Source: a virus
IMG/VR virus record: IMGVR_UViG_3300047368_000080
Span: 1-26,973 of that record
Strand: one strand, 5' to 3'
Length of the DNA stretch: 26,973 nt
Of this stretch, positions 1 to 24,848 are shown one piece after another. Position 1 is the first letter of the stretch. Every line of letters starts with the position of its first letter. The position numbers and the translations under genes are program-made. The notes under the pieces were generated by a model, which was not told where the DNA came from, searched no databases, and was given only the letters and a program-made list of their open reading frames with translations.

Positions 1-834
1 TCAAGCACATACATTCCTCACATTGATAAGGCGTGGACTTGGAGAATGGGCGAGGTTAATATATGGACTGGGTATCAGAATGAAGGAAAGTCTTTGCTTT
101 TGAATCAGCTTGCTACTGTTAAAGCATTTCACGATGGTTGGAAGTTTGGCGTATTTAGTCCAGAGAATATGCCTATGAAAGACTTTTTCAATGATATTGT
201 AGAGATGTACATTGGTAAGAGTGCTGACCCATATTACAAGAATAATCAGATGACAAAGGATGAGTATTATGAAGCAATCAACTTTGTAAAGAAACACTTT
301 TTCTTAATATACCCCAGAAAGAACTTTAACTTGGATTCTATATTTGATAGGGCGAAGTTTCTTGTTAAGACAAAAGGTATTCGTTCTTTAATCATTGACC
401 CATACAATACGGTGCAGCATAAGATGTACAAGGGGGAACGTGAGGACTTGTATATTAGTCGCTTCATGAGTGAGTTAAAGAGGTTTGCTATTGAGAATCA
501 CATATCTGTAAATTTAGTGGCGCACCAAGTTACACCACAGAAAGATGAAAGTGGCAGATATTACAAACCCGATGTGAATAGAATTAAGGGTGGCGGTACG
601 TTTTCAGACAAGGCAGATAATGTGATGTTTGTATGGAGACCGAATCGTGCTTTGGATTTCTCGGACACAAGTGTTATCTTTGGCTCACAGAAGATTAAGA
701 AACAAAAGCTAGTTGGTATTCCACAGGATGTGGAGGGCATCAATTTTAACATAAGAGAACAAAGGTATTACTTTGATGGATACACACCATTTAAGGATAT
801 AGATGTTTTAAGATGCGGAAAAAAGCTAGAGTAG
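1..834 (+). CDS. DnaB-type replicative helicase, C-terminal part (5' end outside window)
   Basis: RecA-fold ATPase of the DnaB/Twinkle helicase type, expected to unwind phage DNA at the fork. The frame is open from base 1 (15 codons precede the first internal ATG at 46, reading ...TYIPHIDKAWTWR), so the gene starts left of the window. Numbering from base 1, the Walker A loop is GYQNEGKS at residues 24-31. A Walker B-like strand RSLIIDPYN follows near residue 130, and HQVTPQK plus RIKGGGTFSDKADNVMF match the late DnaB motifs (switch glutamine/H4 region). No primase or DnaB N-terminal domain is visible here; it may lie upstream. The gene overlaps the next nuclease gene by 22 bases, so the two are translationally coupled. 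An RecA-like ATPase without helicase activity is possible but less likely. Confidence 0.85.
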   Translation, partial: SSTYIPHIDKAWTWRMGEVNIWTGYQNEGKSLLLNQLATVKAFHDGWKFGVFSPENMPMKDFFNDIVEMYIGKSADPYYKNNQMTKDEYYEAINFVKKHFFLIYPRKNFNLDSIFDRAKFLVKTKGIRSLIIDPYNTVQHKMYKGEREDLYISRFMSELKRFAIENHISVNLVAHQVTPQKDESGRYYKPDVNRIKGGGTFSDKADNVMFVWRPNRALDFSDTSVIFGSQKIKKQKLVGIPQDVEGINFNIREQRYYFDGYTPFKDIDVLRCGKKLE

Positions 835-6559: not shown

Positions 6560-6694
6560 CTATTTCGCACTTTTATCCAGTTCTATATTTGTTATAGGGT
6601 CAACAGATATTATACCTTGTCTACCGAACTTAACTACAACCTCATCACACCCATTATCTAAACAGGTACGGAGGTATTGATTAAATTGCTTCAT
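6560..6694 (-). CDS. Small hypothetical protein (44 aa)
   Basis: Leftward ORF starting MKQFNQYLRTCLDNGCDEVV and ending PITNIELDKSAK. Its ATG lies inside the last codons of the dATP/dGTP diphosphohydrolase-like gene (14-base overlap), so the two are probably co-translated. No motif recognised. It ends 86 bases from the stop of the convergent terminase gene. Confidence 0.55.
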   Translation of the reverse strand: MKQFNQYLRTCLDNGCDEVVVKFGRQGIISVDPITNIELDKSAK

Positions 6695-7094
6695 TGTCAT
6701 TCTCTATCTCTTTTTGTAAGTTAGCCAGCGCCCTCCAAGCTACTTTAGCGGAGTGTCTGATGTTATCGGTATCAATAGTACCTGCTTCAAGTAAGTGCCG
6801 AGAAAGAGCATCTAATTCGTCTCCTGACTTGCTTCTATCCCACGCCAGAGGTTTATCTGGATTGTGTTGTTGTTGTCCAGCGTAAGAACATCTAGCAACT
6901 TCTCTTATTGCATCAGGAAAGTAATTCAATACCCCTGTAAAGATTGGAGTTTGCTTTCTTGTGAATTTAACAGGGGTCTCTTCCTTTTTGAATTCAATAC
7001 CCTCCTGTGAATTTAATACCTCTTGCTCTTCAGGAATAATTTCAATATCCCCCTGCTTATTCCATTTATACATATATTTGCCTTTAAATATCAT
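6681..7094 (-). CDS. dATP/dGTP diphosphohydrolase N-terminal-family protein
   Basis: 137 residues. The C-terminal two thirds carry the family pattern known as DUF5664 or dATP/dGTP diphosphohydrolase N-terminal: FPDAIREVARCSYAGQQQH, PLAWDRSKSGDELDALSRHL, then DTDNIRHSAKVAWRAL. Family relatives belong to the MazG-like nucleotide pool enzymes linked to purine-modified phage genomes. Enzyme activity here is inferred. The N-terminal 50 residues are a Glu/Lys-rich extension whose DNA contains five copies of the AATTYAATA repeat. With ATG 7094, only four bases separate it from a TATCTTTG element, implying a nearly leaderless mRNA; Met8 (7073) is an alternative start giving a leader of about 20 bases. 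Confidence 0.8.
   Translation of the reverse strand: MIFKGKYMYKWNKQGDIEIIPEEQEVLNSQEGIEFKKEETPVKFTRKQTPIFTGVLNYFPDAIREVARCSYAGQQQHNPDKPLAWDRSKSGDELDALSRHLLEAGTIDTDNIRHSAKVAWRALANLQKEIENDNEAI
6923..7050. repeat. AATTYAATA repeat cluster inside a coding region
   Basis: Five copies of the dispersed motif: AATTCAATACCCC (6923), GAATTTAACAGGGG (6963), GAATTCAATACCC (6990), GAATTTAATACC (7009) and ATTTCAATATCCCCC (7039). All lie in the N-terminal half of the leftward diphosphohydrolase-like gene and encode its Lys/Glu-rich segment. Confidence 0.7.
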
Positions 7095-7106: not shown

Positions 7107-7124
7107 GTAAATATTTTACAAATA

Positions 7125-7157
7125 CTTAACATTGGCTTAACATTGGGTAACATTAGG
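7125..7157 (+). repeat. Three tandem 11-bp operator-like repeats
   Basis: CTTAACATTGG at 7125-7135 and again at 7136-7146, then the variant GTAACATTAGG at 7147-7157. The 11-base period places each copy on the same face of the helix. The array covers the -33 TTG of the promoter at 7143, which is a typical operator position. The same motif recurs at 8435-8456 (- strand) and 8483-8504. Confidence 0.7.
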
Positions 7158-7170
7158 CTTCGTATGTTTG
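7143..7170 (+). promoter_or_regulatory. Bacteroidota-type promoter for the 7195 operon
   Basis: TTG 7143-7145, 17-base spacer, TATGTTTG 7163-7170. Transcription is expected near 7177, giving a short A-rich leader before the ATG at 7195. The -33 element lies in the second 11-bp repeat. Confidence 0.75.
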
Positions 7171-7194
7171 CATCGAACATAAAAATAAATACAA

Positions 7195-7704
7195 ATGGAA
7201 ATACAAATTGAGTTTGGGGGATTTTACGGATTTCACGATGACTACATTGAAGATAGATGCGACACATTAAGTATTGATACTGATGATGTAAATTGGCATA
7301 AGACTTTTATTCATTATAGCGTAGCTTGGGTGCATAGATTTACAGACATGACAGGAATAGAATTGTTTTTTATTGGATTAGACAGTCCACGATACTACAA
7401 TTTTCGCACCGATAACATTATAGCAAAAGTATTGCCTGATGTTGTTCAGCACCTGATGACGTATATAAACGATGAATTTAAGGAATGGGCAAATCCACAA
7501 TTACAAAGTAGGTCTGGATTTCACTCATTCTATAATGGCGTTGATGACTTAATCGAACGCAGTAAAGATGATGATGATGATAAGGCTATATTATTAGGTA
7601 TGGTTTGCAATTACTTAATTGAAGTAATGGAAGTAAACGAGGATATTTACGAGTTAGAATATGACATAATAGAATTAACAGATAAAACAACAAATAATGA
7701 ATAA
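7195..7704 (+). CDS. Conserved acidic phage protein, unknown function
   Basis: 169 residues, very acidic, with a DDDDD run near residue 125. The N-terminal part reads MEIQIEFGGFYGFHDDYIED, followed by IELFFIGLDSPRYYNFRTDN (about 55-74). 'LDSP(K/R)YYNF.TD' is a pattern I recall from hypothetical proteins of Bacteroidota phages and elements. It is the first gene of an early operon. The acidity and early position would fit a DNA mimic or anti-restriction role, but nothing in the sequence proves that. Confidence 0.75.
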   Translation: MEIQIEFGGFYGFHDDYIEDRCDTLSIDTDDVNWHKTFIHYSVAWVHRFTDMTGIELFFIGLDSPRYYNFRTDNIIAKVLPDVVQHLMTYINDEFKEWANPQLQSRSGFHSFYNGVDDLIERSKDDDDDKAILLGMVCNYLIEVMEVNEDIYELEYDIIELTDKTTNNE

Positions 7705-7909
7705 CGAAGAAATATATATTGACGAGATAATAACATTATGGTCTAATGAAGATGGCGTATGCTTATCGAATGACCACAATACAGTAACAATACGCCCACA
7801 GGCATTGTTCGATTGGCTACCAAGTATTATTGAGGTAACCATGAAGCAAAAGAAAAAAGAAGATGAAGATTTGATTATGCAATTAAAACACAAAATAAAT
7901 GGGATTTGA
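7697..7909 (+). CDS. Hypothetical protein (70 aa)
   Basis: Starts MNNEEIYIDEIITLWSNEDG and ends with a Lys/Glu-rich helix (KQKKKEDEDLIMQLKHKING). No recognised domain. It overlaps the preceding gene by eight bases and the following gene by eleven, so it belongs to the same translation unit. Confidence 0.65.
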   Translation: MNNEEIYIDEIITLWSNEDGVCLSNDHNTVTIRPQALFDWLPSIIEVTMKQKKKEDEDLIMQLKHKINGI

Positions 7910-8192
7910 TAAACACAAATGGAAAGAAGGATTGAAGGATGATATATTATATATGATGTCGGATAATTCAATAGCAAACGAAGATGAGCTTCGCACATTC
8001 ATACATGAAGAGATAGATAATCAATGTATATACTATTCTGATTGCCTCGACATAATGAGGGAATATAATATGTATGATTGGAGTAGTTTAGAAATGGAAT
8101 GTACAAATGTTTCACAGGTTGCATACTGCATACTACTTGAGGAAACTTATAGTTTAGATTATGATGAACTTAAAGACGAATTACATGATTAG
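7899..8192 (+). CDS. Hypothetical acidic protein (97 aa)
   Basis: Starts MGFDKHKWKEGLKDDILYMM and contains FIHEEIDNQCIYYSDCLDIM and EYNMYDWSSLEME. It is acidic like its operon partners. The 'IHE.iDn.ciYysDc..I' pattern is reminiscent of small proteins in other Bacteroidota phages; the function is unknown. It is the last clear gene of the 7195 operon. Confidence 0.68.
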   Translation: MGFDKHKWKEGLKDDILYMMSDNSIANEDELRTFIHEEIDNQCIYYSDCLDIMREYNMYDWSSLEMECTNVSQVAYCILLEETYSLDYDELKDELHD

Positions 8193-8244
8193 TTTAACAA
8201 CAGGAATTTTATTTTTACTTACACTTATATTGTTGTCAAGATAA
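8185..8244 (+). CDS. Possible 19-residue hydrophobic peptide
   Basis: ATG 8185 overlaps the end of the preceding gene. The peptide MISLTTGILFLLTLILLSR is one hydrophobic helix with a basic end. Translational coupling is plausible, but such a short AT-rich ORF can arise by chance. Confidence 0.25.
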   Translation: MISLTTGILFLLTLILLSR

Positions 8245-8246
8245 GC

Positions 8247-8337
8247 AATTCAATATATGATTGTTTTGCAATTCAATACCCCCTTTTGTAAATTTAATAC
8301 CCTATGAATTTAATAGGGCTATGAATTCAATAGGGGG
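8247..8337. repeat. AATTYAATA repeat cluster, foldable
   Basis: Copies start at 8247, 8270, 8291, 8307 and 8324. Two early copies are followed by CCC runs and the last two by GGG runs. As a result CCCTAT/ATAGGG (8300-8305 with 8313-8318) and an outer ACCCCC/GGGGGT pair can form a nested stem-loop. Spacing is 16-23 bases. No protein is encoded. Confidence 0.7.
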
Positions 8338-8358
8338 TGTATGCTTGGATTTCGGGTG

Positions 8359-8386
8359 TGTAGGGGTTGCCCTACATGGTGTAGGG
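8359..8386. other. Mutually exclusive hairpins (switch-like)
   Basis: Arm A TGTAGGG (8359-8365), loop GTTG, arm A' CCCTACA (8370-8376), spacer TGG, second arm A TGTAGGG (8380-8386). A' pairs perfectly with either copy of A, so two 7-bp hairpins compete. No T run follows on either strand. It could act in the leftward transcript from 8422-8450 or in read-through from the 7195 operon. Confidence 0.6.
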
Positions 8387-8421
8387 GAAATCTGACGTTA
8401 AGGCGTGAACAGTCCATTTTG

Positions 8422-8450
8422 CAAATATACAAAATTGCATGTTAACTCAA
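8422..8450 (-). promoter_or_regulatory. Leftward Bacteroidota-type promoter
   Basis: On the - strand TTG (8450-8448), 18-base spacer, TATATTTG (8429-8422). Two 11-base TTAACAT repeats (8456-8446 and 8445-8435) overlap it. Its transcript would run through the hairpins and repeats and antisense to the 7195 operon. The only ORF is 32 codons long (8417-8319), so the product may be a non-coding RNA. Confidence 0.6.
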
Positions 8451-8456
8451 TGTTAA
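8435..8456 (-). repeat. Two 11-bp operator-like repeats, - strand
   Basis: On the - strand TTAACATTGAG (8456-8446) is followed directly by TTAACATGCAA (8445-8435). It is the inverted counterpart of the array at 8483-8504, with a 26-base interval between the two arrays. Confidence 0.6.
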
Positions 8457-8482
8457 ATCTTTGTTTCATTTGGTAACAATTT

Positions 8483-8504
8483 CTTAACATTGGCTTAACA
8501 TTGG
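8483..8504 (+). repeat. Two tandem 11-bp operator-like repeats
   Basis: CTTAACATTGG occurs at 8483-8493 and 8494-8504, identical to the first two copies at 7125-7146. A degenerate copy, GGTAACAATTT, precedes at 8472-8482 in the same 11-base phase. The array overlaps the -33 element of the promoter at 8501. Confidence 0.7.
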
Positions 8505-8528
8505 AAATAAAAAAACGTTGCATATTTG
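8501..8528 (+). promoter_or_regulatory. Promoter for the mini-gene operon
   Basis: TTG 8501-8503, 17-base spacer, CATATTTG 8521-8528 (one mismatch to TAnnTTTG). Transcription near 8535 gives a leader of about 14 bases before ATG 8549. This makes an upstream start at 8501 impossible. Confidence 0.65.
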
Positions 8529-8548: not shown

Positions 8549-8821
8549 ATGAAAACAATTACAGATTACCAAAACCTTAAAACAGAGTTAGAAACAATAA
8601 AAGTTAATCACAAAGAAAAAGGTTTAGACCCTTGCTTTATTTCAGTAAGCGCAAGTGGAATGAATTGGAGGGAAGCAAAGAAGATAGGAATGAAAAAAGA
8701 TTACTATTACGGTTGGGTGTTTTATAGCACATCTACAAACTCAAATGGTTATGACTTGTATGAGAAAATAAAACAAGCGTGTAAAGGTTTTAGTCTTTAC
8801 GTTTCAGAAAGACAATTATAA
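8549..8821 (+). CDS. Hypothetical protein (90 aa), first gene of the mini-gene operon
   Basis: Starts MKTITDYQNLKTELETIKVN and includes CFISVSASGMNWREAKKIGM. No domain recognised. The start at 8549 was chosen over an in-frame ATG at 8501 because the promoter -33 to -7 elements occupy 8501-8528. The start context (caaacattATG after an A/C-rich leader) matches the other genes of this operon. A GNRA-capped hairpin follows ten bases after the stop, which may set this gene's mRNA level apart from the rest. Confidence 0.7.
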   Translation: MKTITDYQNLKTELETIKVNHKEKGLDPCFISVSASGMNWREAKKIGMKKDYYYGWVFYSTSTNSNGYDLYEKIKQACKGFSLYVSERQL

Positions 8822-10610: not shown

Positions 10611-10738
10611 AATTCAATAGGTATGAATTTAATAGGTGGTATAACATCTATTGTTGTGCAATAGAATTGCCTTACAATTCAATACCCATACTTGTGAATC
10701 TAATACCCTTTTCGTATATTAGCTATGAATTTAATAGT
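10611..10738. repeat. AATTYAATA repeat cluster
   Basis: Copies start at 10611 (followed by GG), 10626 (GG), 10677 (CCC), 10697 (AATCTAATACCC) and 10728 (followed by GT and the ATG at 10739). The last copy is the direct leader of the gene at 10739. Confidence 0.7.
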
Positions 10739-20914: not shown

Positions 20915-21895
20915 ATGAGTAATCAAAAAGTAAATCTATACGCTGGTAATGGTTCTGTTGATACCATCACCTCTACTTACGCTGGAGAGTTTGCAGGAAA
21001 ATACATTTCTGCTGCCCTCTTGACAGGTAAAACATTAGCTGAAGGTGCAATCACCATCAAACCTAATGTAAAATATAAAGAAGTCGTAAAGAAAGTTGCT
21101 TCAACTAACTTTATAGGAGATGCTTCTTGTGATTTTTCTGCTACTGCTGATGCGCTTACACTTACAGAGCGTATTCTTCAGCCAGAAGAGTTCCAAGTTA
21201 ACCTAGAGCTTTGTAAAAAAGACTTTAGAGCAGACTGGGAAGCTGTACAAATGGGATATTCTGCGTTTGACAAGCTACCTGCATCTTTCTCTGACTTTAT
21301 TCTAGGACACGTTTCTGCTAAAGTTGCTGAAAAGACAGAACAAAATATCTGGGCTGGTGTAAACGCCAACGCTGGAGAGTTTGACGGTCTTACAGTTCTT
21401 ATGGCTGCTGACGGAGATGTAAATGATGCTGCAAATGGCTCTGAAACATCTTTCACTTCTTCTAACATTGTAACACTACTTGGAAATGTAGTTGACTCAA
21501 TTCCTGCCTCTGTTTACGGTAAGGAAGATTTGACTATCTACGTTCCAACTGTTGCTTTGCAAGCTTATGTTCGCGCATTAGGCGGTTTCGCTTCAGGTGG
21601 ACAGGGTGCTGCTGGTACAGATGCTAAAGGACAACAATGGTACAATATGGGTAATGCACTTTCTTTTGAAGGTATTAAAATCCAACATGCGCCAGGAATG
21701 CCTGCTGACCACATAGTTGCTGGTGAGGCTTCTAACATCTACTTTGGTACAGGTCTATTAAGCGACCACAACGAAGTAAAAGTAATCGACATGGCTGACC
21801 TTGACGGAAGCCAGAATGTACGTATCATCATGCGATATACAGCAGGTGTACAGTACGGTATCGGTTCTGACTTGACGTTACTGACGTTAGCATAA
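20915..21895 (+). CDS. Major capsid protein
   Basis: 326 residues. The position just after the scaffold, the size and features such as ISAALLTGKTLAEGAITIKP, FQVNLELCKKDFRADWEAVQ, KTEQNIWAGVNANAGEFDGL and LTIYVPTVALQAYVRALGG fit HK97-fold capsid proteins of Bacteroidota siphoviruses. Codon use is more C-ending and less AT-biased than in early genes, consistent with high expression. An intrinsic terminator follows 14 bases after the stop. Confidence 0.87.
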   Translation: MSNQKVNLYAGNGSVDTITSTYAGEFAGKYISAALLTGKTLAEGAITIKPNVKYKEVVKKVASTNFIGDASCDFSATADALTLTERILQPEEFQVNLELCKKDFRADWEAVQMGYSAFDKLPASFSDFILGHVSAKVAEKTEQNIWAGVNANAGEFDGLTVLMAADGDVNDAANGSETSFTSSNIVTLLGNVVDSIPASVYGKEDLTIYVPTVALQAYVRALGGFASGGQGAAGTDAKGQQWYNMGNALSFEGIKIQHAPGMPADHIVAGEASNIYFGTGLLSDHNEVKVIDMADLDGSQNVRIIMRYTAGVQYGIGSDLTLLTLA

Positions 21896-21952: not shown

Positions 21953-22507
21953 ATGGCTTGTGATTTAACTGGCGGAAGATTAAGACCTTGTAAGGATGCT
22001 GTCGGTGGTATTAAGAAACTACACTTTGTAGATTTCGGTGATTTAGGAACTTTAGCCTATGGCTCTAGTGATGAGATTACTGATATGACTGGTACTTTCG
22101 ACTATCACACTTATGATGTTAAAGGTAATTCTTCGCTTGAAACAAACATTACATCTTCTATGGAGAATGGAACAACATTCTTTGAGCAGGTGTTAAGCGT
22201 TACATTGTTTAAGCTAACTAAAGAGGACAATAAAGAATTGAAGTTAATGGCGTATGGTAGACCACACGTTGTTGTACAAACATTTGATGACAAGTTCTTG
22301 TTGGTTGGCGCTGACAATGGTTCTGACGTAACTGGCGGTACTGCTGTAACTGGTACTGCAATGGGAGACCTAAATGGCTACACACTAACTTTAACTGCTA
22401 ATGAAATCCGTATGCCATCTTTCGTAGATGGAGGTACTGATGCAGACCCATTTGCAGGTATGACAAGTGCTACTGCTACTGAATCTACTCAAAGAGACCC
22501 TTCATAA
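21953..22507 (+). CDS. Major tail (tube) protein
   Basis: 184 residues. It has GGRLRPCKDAVGGIKKLHFV near the N terminus, then FDYHTYDVKGNSSLETNITS and SMENGTTFFEQVLSVTLFKL, and the late segment GTAMGDLNGYTLTLTANEI. This 'CKD.vGGiK...' opening and 'GD..GYt.T..a.E' ending match major tail proteins of Bacteroidota phages. It forms the tail tube around the tape measure. It lies between two terminators, so it may be transcribed by read-through from the capsid gene. Confidence 0.82.
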   Translation: MACDLTGGRLRPCKDAVGGIKKLHFVDFGDLGTLAYGSSDEITDMTGTFDYHTYDVKGNSSLETNITSSMENGTTFFEQVLSVTLFKLTKEDNKELKLMAYGRPHVVVQTFDDKFLLVGADNGSDVTGGTAVTGTAMGDLNGYTLTLTANEIRMPSFVDGGTDADPFAGMTSATATESTQRDPS

Positions 22508-22536
22508 ATTTAATAGGGTTGTGAATTTAAAAGGGG
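22506..22536 (+). repeat. Two AATTYAATA-type repeats before a terminator
   Basis: AAATTTAATAGGG at 22506-22518 and GAATTTAAAAGGGG at 22523-22536, both followed by TTG. The tandem runs into the terminator stem, whose GGGG is the end of the second copy. Confidence 0.55.
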
Positions 22537-23594: not shown

Positions 23595-24848
23595 ATGGCA
23601 AAAAAAGTAAGACATTACGCAAAGAAAAGACCTATTATGAGTAGTAAAGAAGAAGGTAAAATACACATTGTTCAACTCGGTTCTTATTCAAGACCAGAGG
23701 TGAAAGAATACTATAACGATGATTTCGTTGCTTATGGTGAGGACAACGACTATTTTACTTACCTGATAGACAGGTACAACGGAAGTCCAACAAACAACGC
23801 TGCAATCAATGGCATATCTGAAATGATATATGGAAGAGGTCTTGATGCGACAGACAGTAAAGAGAATGAGGCTGGCTACAAGGAGATGAAAGAACTTCTC
23901 AAAAAGGATGTGATTAAGCGAATTACCCACGACTACAAAATGATGGGTCAAGCTGCATTGCAAGTCATATACACCAAAGACCGCACTAAAATAGCTCAAG
24001 TAGAGCATATACCAGTAGAGACGTTAAGAGCCGAGAAATGTAACTCTAAAGGCGAAATAGAGGCATACTACTACCATTCTGACTGGAGTACAGCAAGTAC
24101 AGGAGACAAGCTAACTAGAATACCTGCATTTGGGTTCTCTAATGCTGCTATTGAGATACTATACATAAAGCCTTATCGTGCTGGGTATAAATACTATTCG
24201 CCAGTAGATTATCAAGGGGGATTACAATATGCAGAGTTGGAAGAGGAGATTGCCAACTATCACATTAACAACATACAGAATGGATTGAGTCCATCAATGC
24301 TCATTAACTTTAACAACGGTACACCAGATGCAGAGCAGAGAGACGCCATAGAGAATAGCATTATAAATAAATTTAGCGGTAGTTCTAACGCAGGTAGATT
24401 TATCTTGGCGTTCAACGATAGCAAGGAATTAGCAGCAACTATTGAGCCTGTACAGCTATCAGATGCACACCAGCAATACCAGTTCTTGTCTGACGAGAGT
24501 ATGCGTAAGGTAATGGTATCACACCGTATCGTATCGCCTATGCTTGTTGGTATAAAGGATAACTCTGGTCTTGGAAACAATGCGGAGGAATTGCAAACCG
24601 CATCTGTTCTTATGGACAACACCGTAATCAGACCAATGCAAGTTACTATTCTTGATGAGCTAGAAAAGATACTTGAGTACAACGGAATTGAATTAGACAT
24701 CTATTTTAAGACCCTACAACCGCTTGAATTTACTGACTTGACTAATGCTATCAGCGAAGCCGAGATAGAGAAGGAAACAGGCGTTAAAAAGGATATAGAG
24801 GAAGAAGTTAAAGAAAAGGTAGAGGAACAAATTGAAGATGTAGAATAA
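23595..24848 (+). CDS. Portal protein
   Basis: 417 residues with portal features: an N-terminal arm, IDRYNGSPTNNAAINGISEM (about 55-75), YGRGLDATD, DYKMMGQAALQVIYTKDRTK, the helix NNIQNGLSPSMLINFNNGTP (about 215-235) and a long C-terminal helical part ending in a Glu/Lys-rich tail (EEEVKEKVEEQIEDVE). It forms the dodecameric DNA entry ring. A GGAGG sequence lies nine bases before the ATG, the only Shine-Dalgarno-like site noted, though it also encodes the end of the preceding protein. It overlaps the connector gene by one base. Confidence 0.85.
   Translation: MAKKVRHYAKKRPIMSSKEEGKIHIVQLGSYSRPEVKEYYNDDFVAYGEDNDYFTYLIDRYNGSPTNNAAINGISEMIYGRGLDATDSKENEAGYKEMKELLKKDVIKRITHDYKMMGQAALQVIYTKDRTKIAQVEHIPVETLRAEKCNSKGEIEAYYYHSDWSTASTGDKLTRIPAFGFSNAAIEILYIKPYRAGYKYYSPVDYQGGLQYAELEEEIANYHINNIQNGLSPSMLINFNNGTPDAEQRDAIENSIINKFSGSSNAGRFILAFNDSKELAATIEPVQLSDAHQQYQFLSDESMRKVMVSHRIVSPMLVGIKDNSGLGNNAEELQTASVLMDNTVIRPMQVTILDELEKILEYNGIELDIYFKTLQPLEFTDLTNAISEAEIEKETGVKKDIEEEVKEKVEEQIEDVE

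Follow-up and report, generated by a model that had tools for sequence, protein, structure and literature searches.

In E. coli the Pho box is read by PhoB and consists of CTGTCAT direct repeats with an 11-bp period, which overlap the -35 element and stand in a fixed phase to the -10 element. In B. subtilis the PhoP box repeats TTAACA directly at intervals of about 11 bp, and OmpR-family proteins in general bind tandem repeats of 10-11 bp. In cyanophages, phage genes under host PhoBR control are established (PMC10976474): host PhoB bound the Pho-box promoters of S-PM2d in gel shifts, including those of the DNA polymerase and of a hypothetical gene, and S-PM2d also shows that phosphate-acquisition cargo is not universal in PhoBR hijack. 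For Bacteroidota, two papers report that PhoB of B. fragilis binds the pstC promoter by EMSA (PMC3547664) and describe the Pho regulon of F. johnsoniae (PMC8115612). A Bacteroidota Pho-box sequence was not found in the accessible text of these three papers, and no Bacteroidota phage with Pho boxes or comparable nutrient control was found in the open-access literature searched.

The DNA studied here is one IMG/VR record, IMGVR_UViG_3300047368_000080, and the whole stretch of 26,973 bases is called the window below. It comes from a marine tailed phage that has Bacteroidota-type promoters and whose host is probably a marine flavobacterium. Judged from the sequence, the three repeat arrays found on these promoters (Table 1) are quite probably Bacteroidota-type Pho boxes, which would be read by host PhoB under phosphate starvation. 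An Rfam scan of the window found no family. The product of the gene at 1090-1629 has weak similarity to sigma-70 region 4.

Table 1. Coordinates of the arrays, promoters and neighbouring genes in the window.
Feature	Position	Strand	Details
DnaB-type helicase	46-834		
Terminase large subunit (TerL)	5256-6473		
Gene diverging from array 1	6681-7094	-	dATP/dGTP diphosphohydrolase N-terminal domain (PF18909)
Array 1, putative Pho box	7115-7158	+	degenerate unit 7115-7125, then three units
Promoter 1	-33 TTG 7143-7145; -7 TATGTTTG 7163-7170	+	overlapped by array 1
Operon behind promoter 1	7195-8192	+	ORFs 7195-7704, 7697-7909, 7899-8192
Antisense promoter	-33 TTG 8450-8448; -7 TATATTTG 8429-8422	-	kept in about 11 relatives
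Array 3, putative Pho box on antisense promoter	8437-8456	-	TTAACATTG 8456-8448, TTAACATGC 8445-8437, 11-bp step
Array 2, putative Pho box	8473-8505	+	degenerate GTAACAATTTC 8473-8483, perfect units 8484 and 8495
Promoter 2	-33 TTG 8501-8503; -7 CATATTTG 8521-8528	+	overlapped by array 2
First gene behind promoter 2	8552-8821	+	89 aa orphan
Portal	23595-24848		

An earlier note on this DNA had described tandem TTAACATTG units on three promoters, and they are indeed present there (7126-7170 and 8473-8528 on the plus strand, 8456-8422 on the minus strand), each array overlapping, as the note had said, the -33 element of a TTG-N17/18-(T/C)AnnTTTG promoter. Array 1 does hold the three tandem units claimed for it, but not all at 11 bases: TTAACATTG at 7126 and 7137 makes an 11-bp step, and the third unit (TAACATTAG, 7148) follows after 10 bp. 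A degenerate unit, TTTACAAATAC, stands ahead of them at 7115. Array 2, for which two to three units had been counted, has two perfect ones and the degenerate one 11 bp 5′ of the unit at 8484. The inverted pair on the antisense promoter has its two units and its 11-bp step, but the second unit reads TTAACATGC. Direct tandem repeats with the one-helical-turn period of 11 bp, a feature of Pho boxes, are found on all three promoters, with one step of 10 bp in array 1. All five exact TTAACATTG copies of the window fall inside the three arrays, compared with a mean of 0.64 copies in 300 dinucleotide shuffles, and TAACA-N6-TAACA occurs 4 times against a mean of 0.18 and a maximum of 2 in the same shuffles. 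Single copies of TTAACATTG with at most one mismatch are not enriched in the window (18 vs 16.1), so the tandem arrangement is the signal. A chance origin of the arrays was rejected on the shuffles and on the conservation in relatives described below. The other promoters found in the window are without an array, in line with the earlier claim that the motif marks a specific promoter set and is missing at the promoter at 2605 and around 22537, where no box was scored (-7.0, -5.5 and -7.9 bits).

The exact sequence TTAACATTGNNTTAACATTG was scanned in one genome per species (about 85,000 species genomes), and the matches listed are mostly from Bacteroidota, with some Firmicutes genomes too. Among these matches, 49 first downstream genes from the loci L134-L213 include DUF47/PhoU_div (8), Porin_O_P (8), VTC (3), PstS (2) and PHO4 (1), TonB/SusC-type receptors also occur in this position, and of the host targets that can be recognised, phosphate genes form the largest class; for control ORFs from the same contigs (n = 49), no phosphate family is among the 25 most frequent families. 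At further loci the downstream genes include porins once more, together with PhoU and a Na/Pi cotransporter. Some host tandems have no phosphate gene behind them, for example that of L183/L163, which is flanked by aspS and an unrelated small gene, and this counts against PhoB as the reader. In the reverse test, the upstream regions of Flavobacteriaceae PstS and Porin_O_P genes were examined with rpsI as the control; PstS and porins were chosen because DUF47, dropped as a test gene, is absent in Flavobacteriaceae. The best match to TTAACATTNNNTTAACATT reaches 15/16 upstream of 8 of 30 porin genes, and at most 11/16 in the 450 bp upstream of rpsI.

Expectation-maximisation on the upstream regions of the phosphate genes, carried out without consensus or phage input, returned de novo the motif ggTAACATTAA.TTAACATT for Flavobacteriaceae PstS and Porin_O_P; it came third, the first two motifs being the -7/leader and flanks. 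When the window is scored with this host motif, the six best sites are the three arrays (7125, 8483, 8472, 8447 on the minus strand, 7114, and 8436 on the minus strand), with scores from 23.4 to 12.3 bits, and the next site has 7.6 bits. Array 1 reaches 23.4 bits at 7125, array 2 has 23.4 at 8483 and 22.4 at 8472, and array 3 has 14.2 and 12.3. TAAC spacing upstream of the Flavobacteriaceae phosphate genes peaks at 11, 22 and 33 (26, 11 and 9 vs about 1.5), on the sense strand only, and Bacteroidales pstC upstream regions have a peak at 11 (8 vs about 1); the rpsI upstream regions have no 11-bp peak (1). One inspected box (genome L470) precedes a porin-pstS-pstC-pstA-pstB-phoU operon by about 40 bp, which is, as far as sequence can tell, where a Pho box would be expected. 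The window thus carries a motif shared with phosphate-starvation genes of the host phylum. Two results count against PhoB as the reader: the de novo search on Bacteroidales pstC upstream regions returned neither the box nor a sharp motif, and the phoBR-linked OprP of F. johnsoniae is itself not induced at low phosphate (PMC8115612). In many species of Chryseobacterium (L138, L144, L146 and other loci), a conserved tandem TTAACATTG is directed away from the nearest gene start and lies near that gene's own promoter, which is possibly a different, repressing arrangement.

The position of the box relative to the -7 element is also shared. In 17 of 120 host boxes the last TTAACATTG starts 26 nt before the TTTG-type -7, and in 9 of 120 it starts 15 nt before it, against a background of 1.4; these two distances differ by one unit. 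Arrays 1 and 2 both have a unit at 26 nt, array 1 adds a proximal unit at 15-16 nt, and the last unit of the antisense array is at 16 nt; counted from TAACA, the units start 36, 25 and 15 nt upstream of the -7 element in array 1, and 47, 36 and 25 nt in array 2. Among IMG/VR stretches, a box-to--7 spacing of 26 was found 95 times, compared with 4 for spacing 25 (the off-by-one control), 1 for 31 and 5 for 15. Like the boxes of host promoters, the arrays overlap the -33/-35 element and keep a fixed phase relative to the -7/-10 element.

Relatives were defined as the best 80 of 130 loci from a TerL search of IMG/VR (81-99% identity), and the presence of the box was scored with a motif model trained solely on host genes. 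Within these best 80 of 130, 62 loci have at least 1.1 kb after TerL, and 60 of them have the box within that distance; in one of the other two it follows at 1,157 bp. The earlier note had proposed such a scan, with non-conservation counting against it, and the array is kept. The 3.5-kb zones behind TerL, 181 kb in all, contain 171 box matches, and the other 488 kb contain 8; 5 of these 8 were inspected and are one conserved coding site. In about 95 promoters of relatives, the unit TAACA is located 25 and 36 nt before the -7, often at 47 and 58 or 14/15 too, and the stretch between box and -7 is variable. The genes behind these promoters belong to many unrelated small families, and the 89-aa gene behind promoter 2 has no relative in other family loci, though its promoter is conserved; therefore, the promoter is kept while the cargo changes.

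The box is present, too, in more distant group members (TerL 57-64%), a sample that is biased by having been found via the pattern, and certain box-bearing contigs have no similarity to the window. On one of them, an unrelated 17-kb phage contig (L084+L125, IMGVR_UViG_3300034073_002502), 16 promoters share the 26-nt geometry, and nearly every one immediately precedes its own small gene. In two further loci (L436, L443), a box promoter lies ahead of a 152-aa phage gene, the product of which we take, from inspection of the letters by eye, to resemble a NADAR-type protein. No cultured phage was useful as a relative at the DNA level, and relatives were obtained at the protein level only. The nearest found are the Nonlabens phages P12024L/S (Inhavirus; TerL 55% identity), which have a homologue of the protein at 20915-21895 and come from a marine flavobacterium. 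Strong boxes were not found at the corresponding place in P12024L/S, which counts against PhoB as the reader, and the box wiring is thus not shared by the whole of the wider group. In P12024L, a gene located a few genes ahead of the terminase is annotated as sigma-70 region 2.

With regard to the genes next to the arrays, the product of ORF 7195-7704 has 169 aa and belongs to phrog_37559, a family of unknown function; its fold matches only uncharacterised phage proteins, for example from Cellulophaga phage phi17:2, with no functional match. The divergent PF18909 gene, which is seen in about 100 related loci, could be under the shared control of array 1. Downstream of the antisense box promoter (minus strand, 8429-8260) the start, TTTGCAAAATGGAC, is conserved, and a nested hairpin made of the CCCTATTRAATT repeat comes about 100 nt later, kept in 12 relatives and with a GCC/GGC swap in L049; this region could be a small RNA, a leader or a terminator. 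This second short repeat (CCCTATTRAATT or GGGTATTRAATT) forms four clusters, at 6923-7021, 8270-8335, 10611-10708 and 22507-22535, all on the minus strand, and each version has 8 matches at no more than one mismatch vs about 0.5 expected.

Since the phage site matches the host Pho box, the regulator is most likely host PhoB. The cooperative regulator and specific regulon suggested by the earlier note were right in kind, but the regulator is probably the host's and not the phage's. It is unlikely that another OmpR/PhoB-family regulator of the host, or a phage-encoded one with PhoB-like specificity, reads the boxes and makes the promoters answer another signal: tandem 10-11 bp repeats do suit the family as a whole, the 16 promoters of the unrelated contig could look like a phage-wide promoter class, and the phage has its weak sigma-region-4-like gene; however, the motif from host PstS and porin promoters alone ranks the phage arrays first, phosphate genes lead the recognisable host targets among the matches listed, and the window ORFs that were scanned include no recognisable OmpR-family protein.

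The units overlap the -33 element and are phased with it, and strength is common in phage promoters, so the repeats might be a general feature of strong Bacteroidota promoters, namely an extended -33 together with an upstream element that serves the polymerase alpha subunit or DNA bending. As the main reading this was rejected by the rpsI controls, in which both the motif and the 11-bp peak are missing; nine inspected Bacteroidota genomes have the close form of the box as a single array in each, the other window promoters are without it, and we regard such a feature as very improbable. Little credence is likewise given to PhoB as a repressor that holds the phage genes back in a starved cell when phosphate is short. 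A protein bound over the -33 could block polymerase, but the known activating PhoB sites of E. coli overlap the -35 as well, and the phosphate operons of hosts, induced when phosphate is limiting, share the phase; the placement of the box as in host phosphate promoters favours activation.

The presence of the arrays, their fixed phase to the -7, their conservation and their match to the host phosphate-gene motif are established at the level of sequence, from which we infer PhoB binding, activation instead of repression, and dependence on phosphate. In the proposed activation by host PhoB, low phosphate would lead to phosphorylation of PhoB, and PhoB~P would bind the repeated units cooperatively, side by side on one helix face and overlapping the -33. 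Bound PhoB would then recruit RNA polymerase to both rightward promoters as well as to the antisense one, by which the small orphan phage genes and the antisense transcript would answer to the host phosphate-starvation response. As the arrays are apparent PhoB sites, the phage probably adjusts some of its infection programme to the phosphate hunger of its host. In the lineage of the window, box promoters are conserved over dozens of environmental genomes. We propose tentatively, at somewhat less than an even chance, that at least two unrelated Bacteroidota phage lineages have independently put variable zones of small genes, possibly for host takeover, under host PhoB, so that the outcome of infection would be gated by phosphate status without a phosphate-uptake gene. 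If PhoB does read the boxes, a common aquatic phage group would read the host phosphate state via the host's own regulator, and phosphorus supply would directly affect the infection of important marine polymer-degrading bacteria. The analysis also supplies a Bacteroidota Pho-box motif and geometry, which can be tested in any cultured flavobacterium.

Compared with the known systems, the site has nearly the same unit core (TTAACA) and the same period as the B. subtilis PhoP box, which belongs to another phylum with other promoter elements, and no homology to it is claimed for the phage site. With the E. coli Pho box it shares 11-bp direct repeats over the -35 region in a fixed phase, but the unit there is CTGTCAT, whereas here TTAACATTG is combined with the Bacteroidota -33/-7 elements. 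The closest likeness in kind is to the cyanophages (P-SSM2 pstS; S-PM2d), in which host-type Pho boxes stand on phage promoters (PMC10976474). Unlike in that type of hijack, the window ORFs that were scanned gave no recognisable gene for phosphate acquisition such as pstS or phoA, which counts against PhoB as the reader, the window being possibly a partial genome. The hosts here belong to the Bacteroidota, and 2-4 TTAACATTG units make up a near-perfect tandem in a fixed phase to the -7. Again unlike in cyanophages, a large group of phages has kept this site, which would drive small orphan genes and an antisense promoter.
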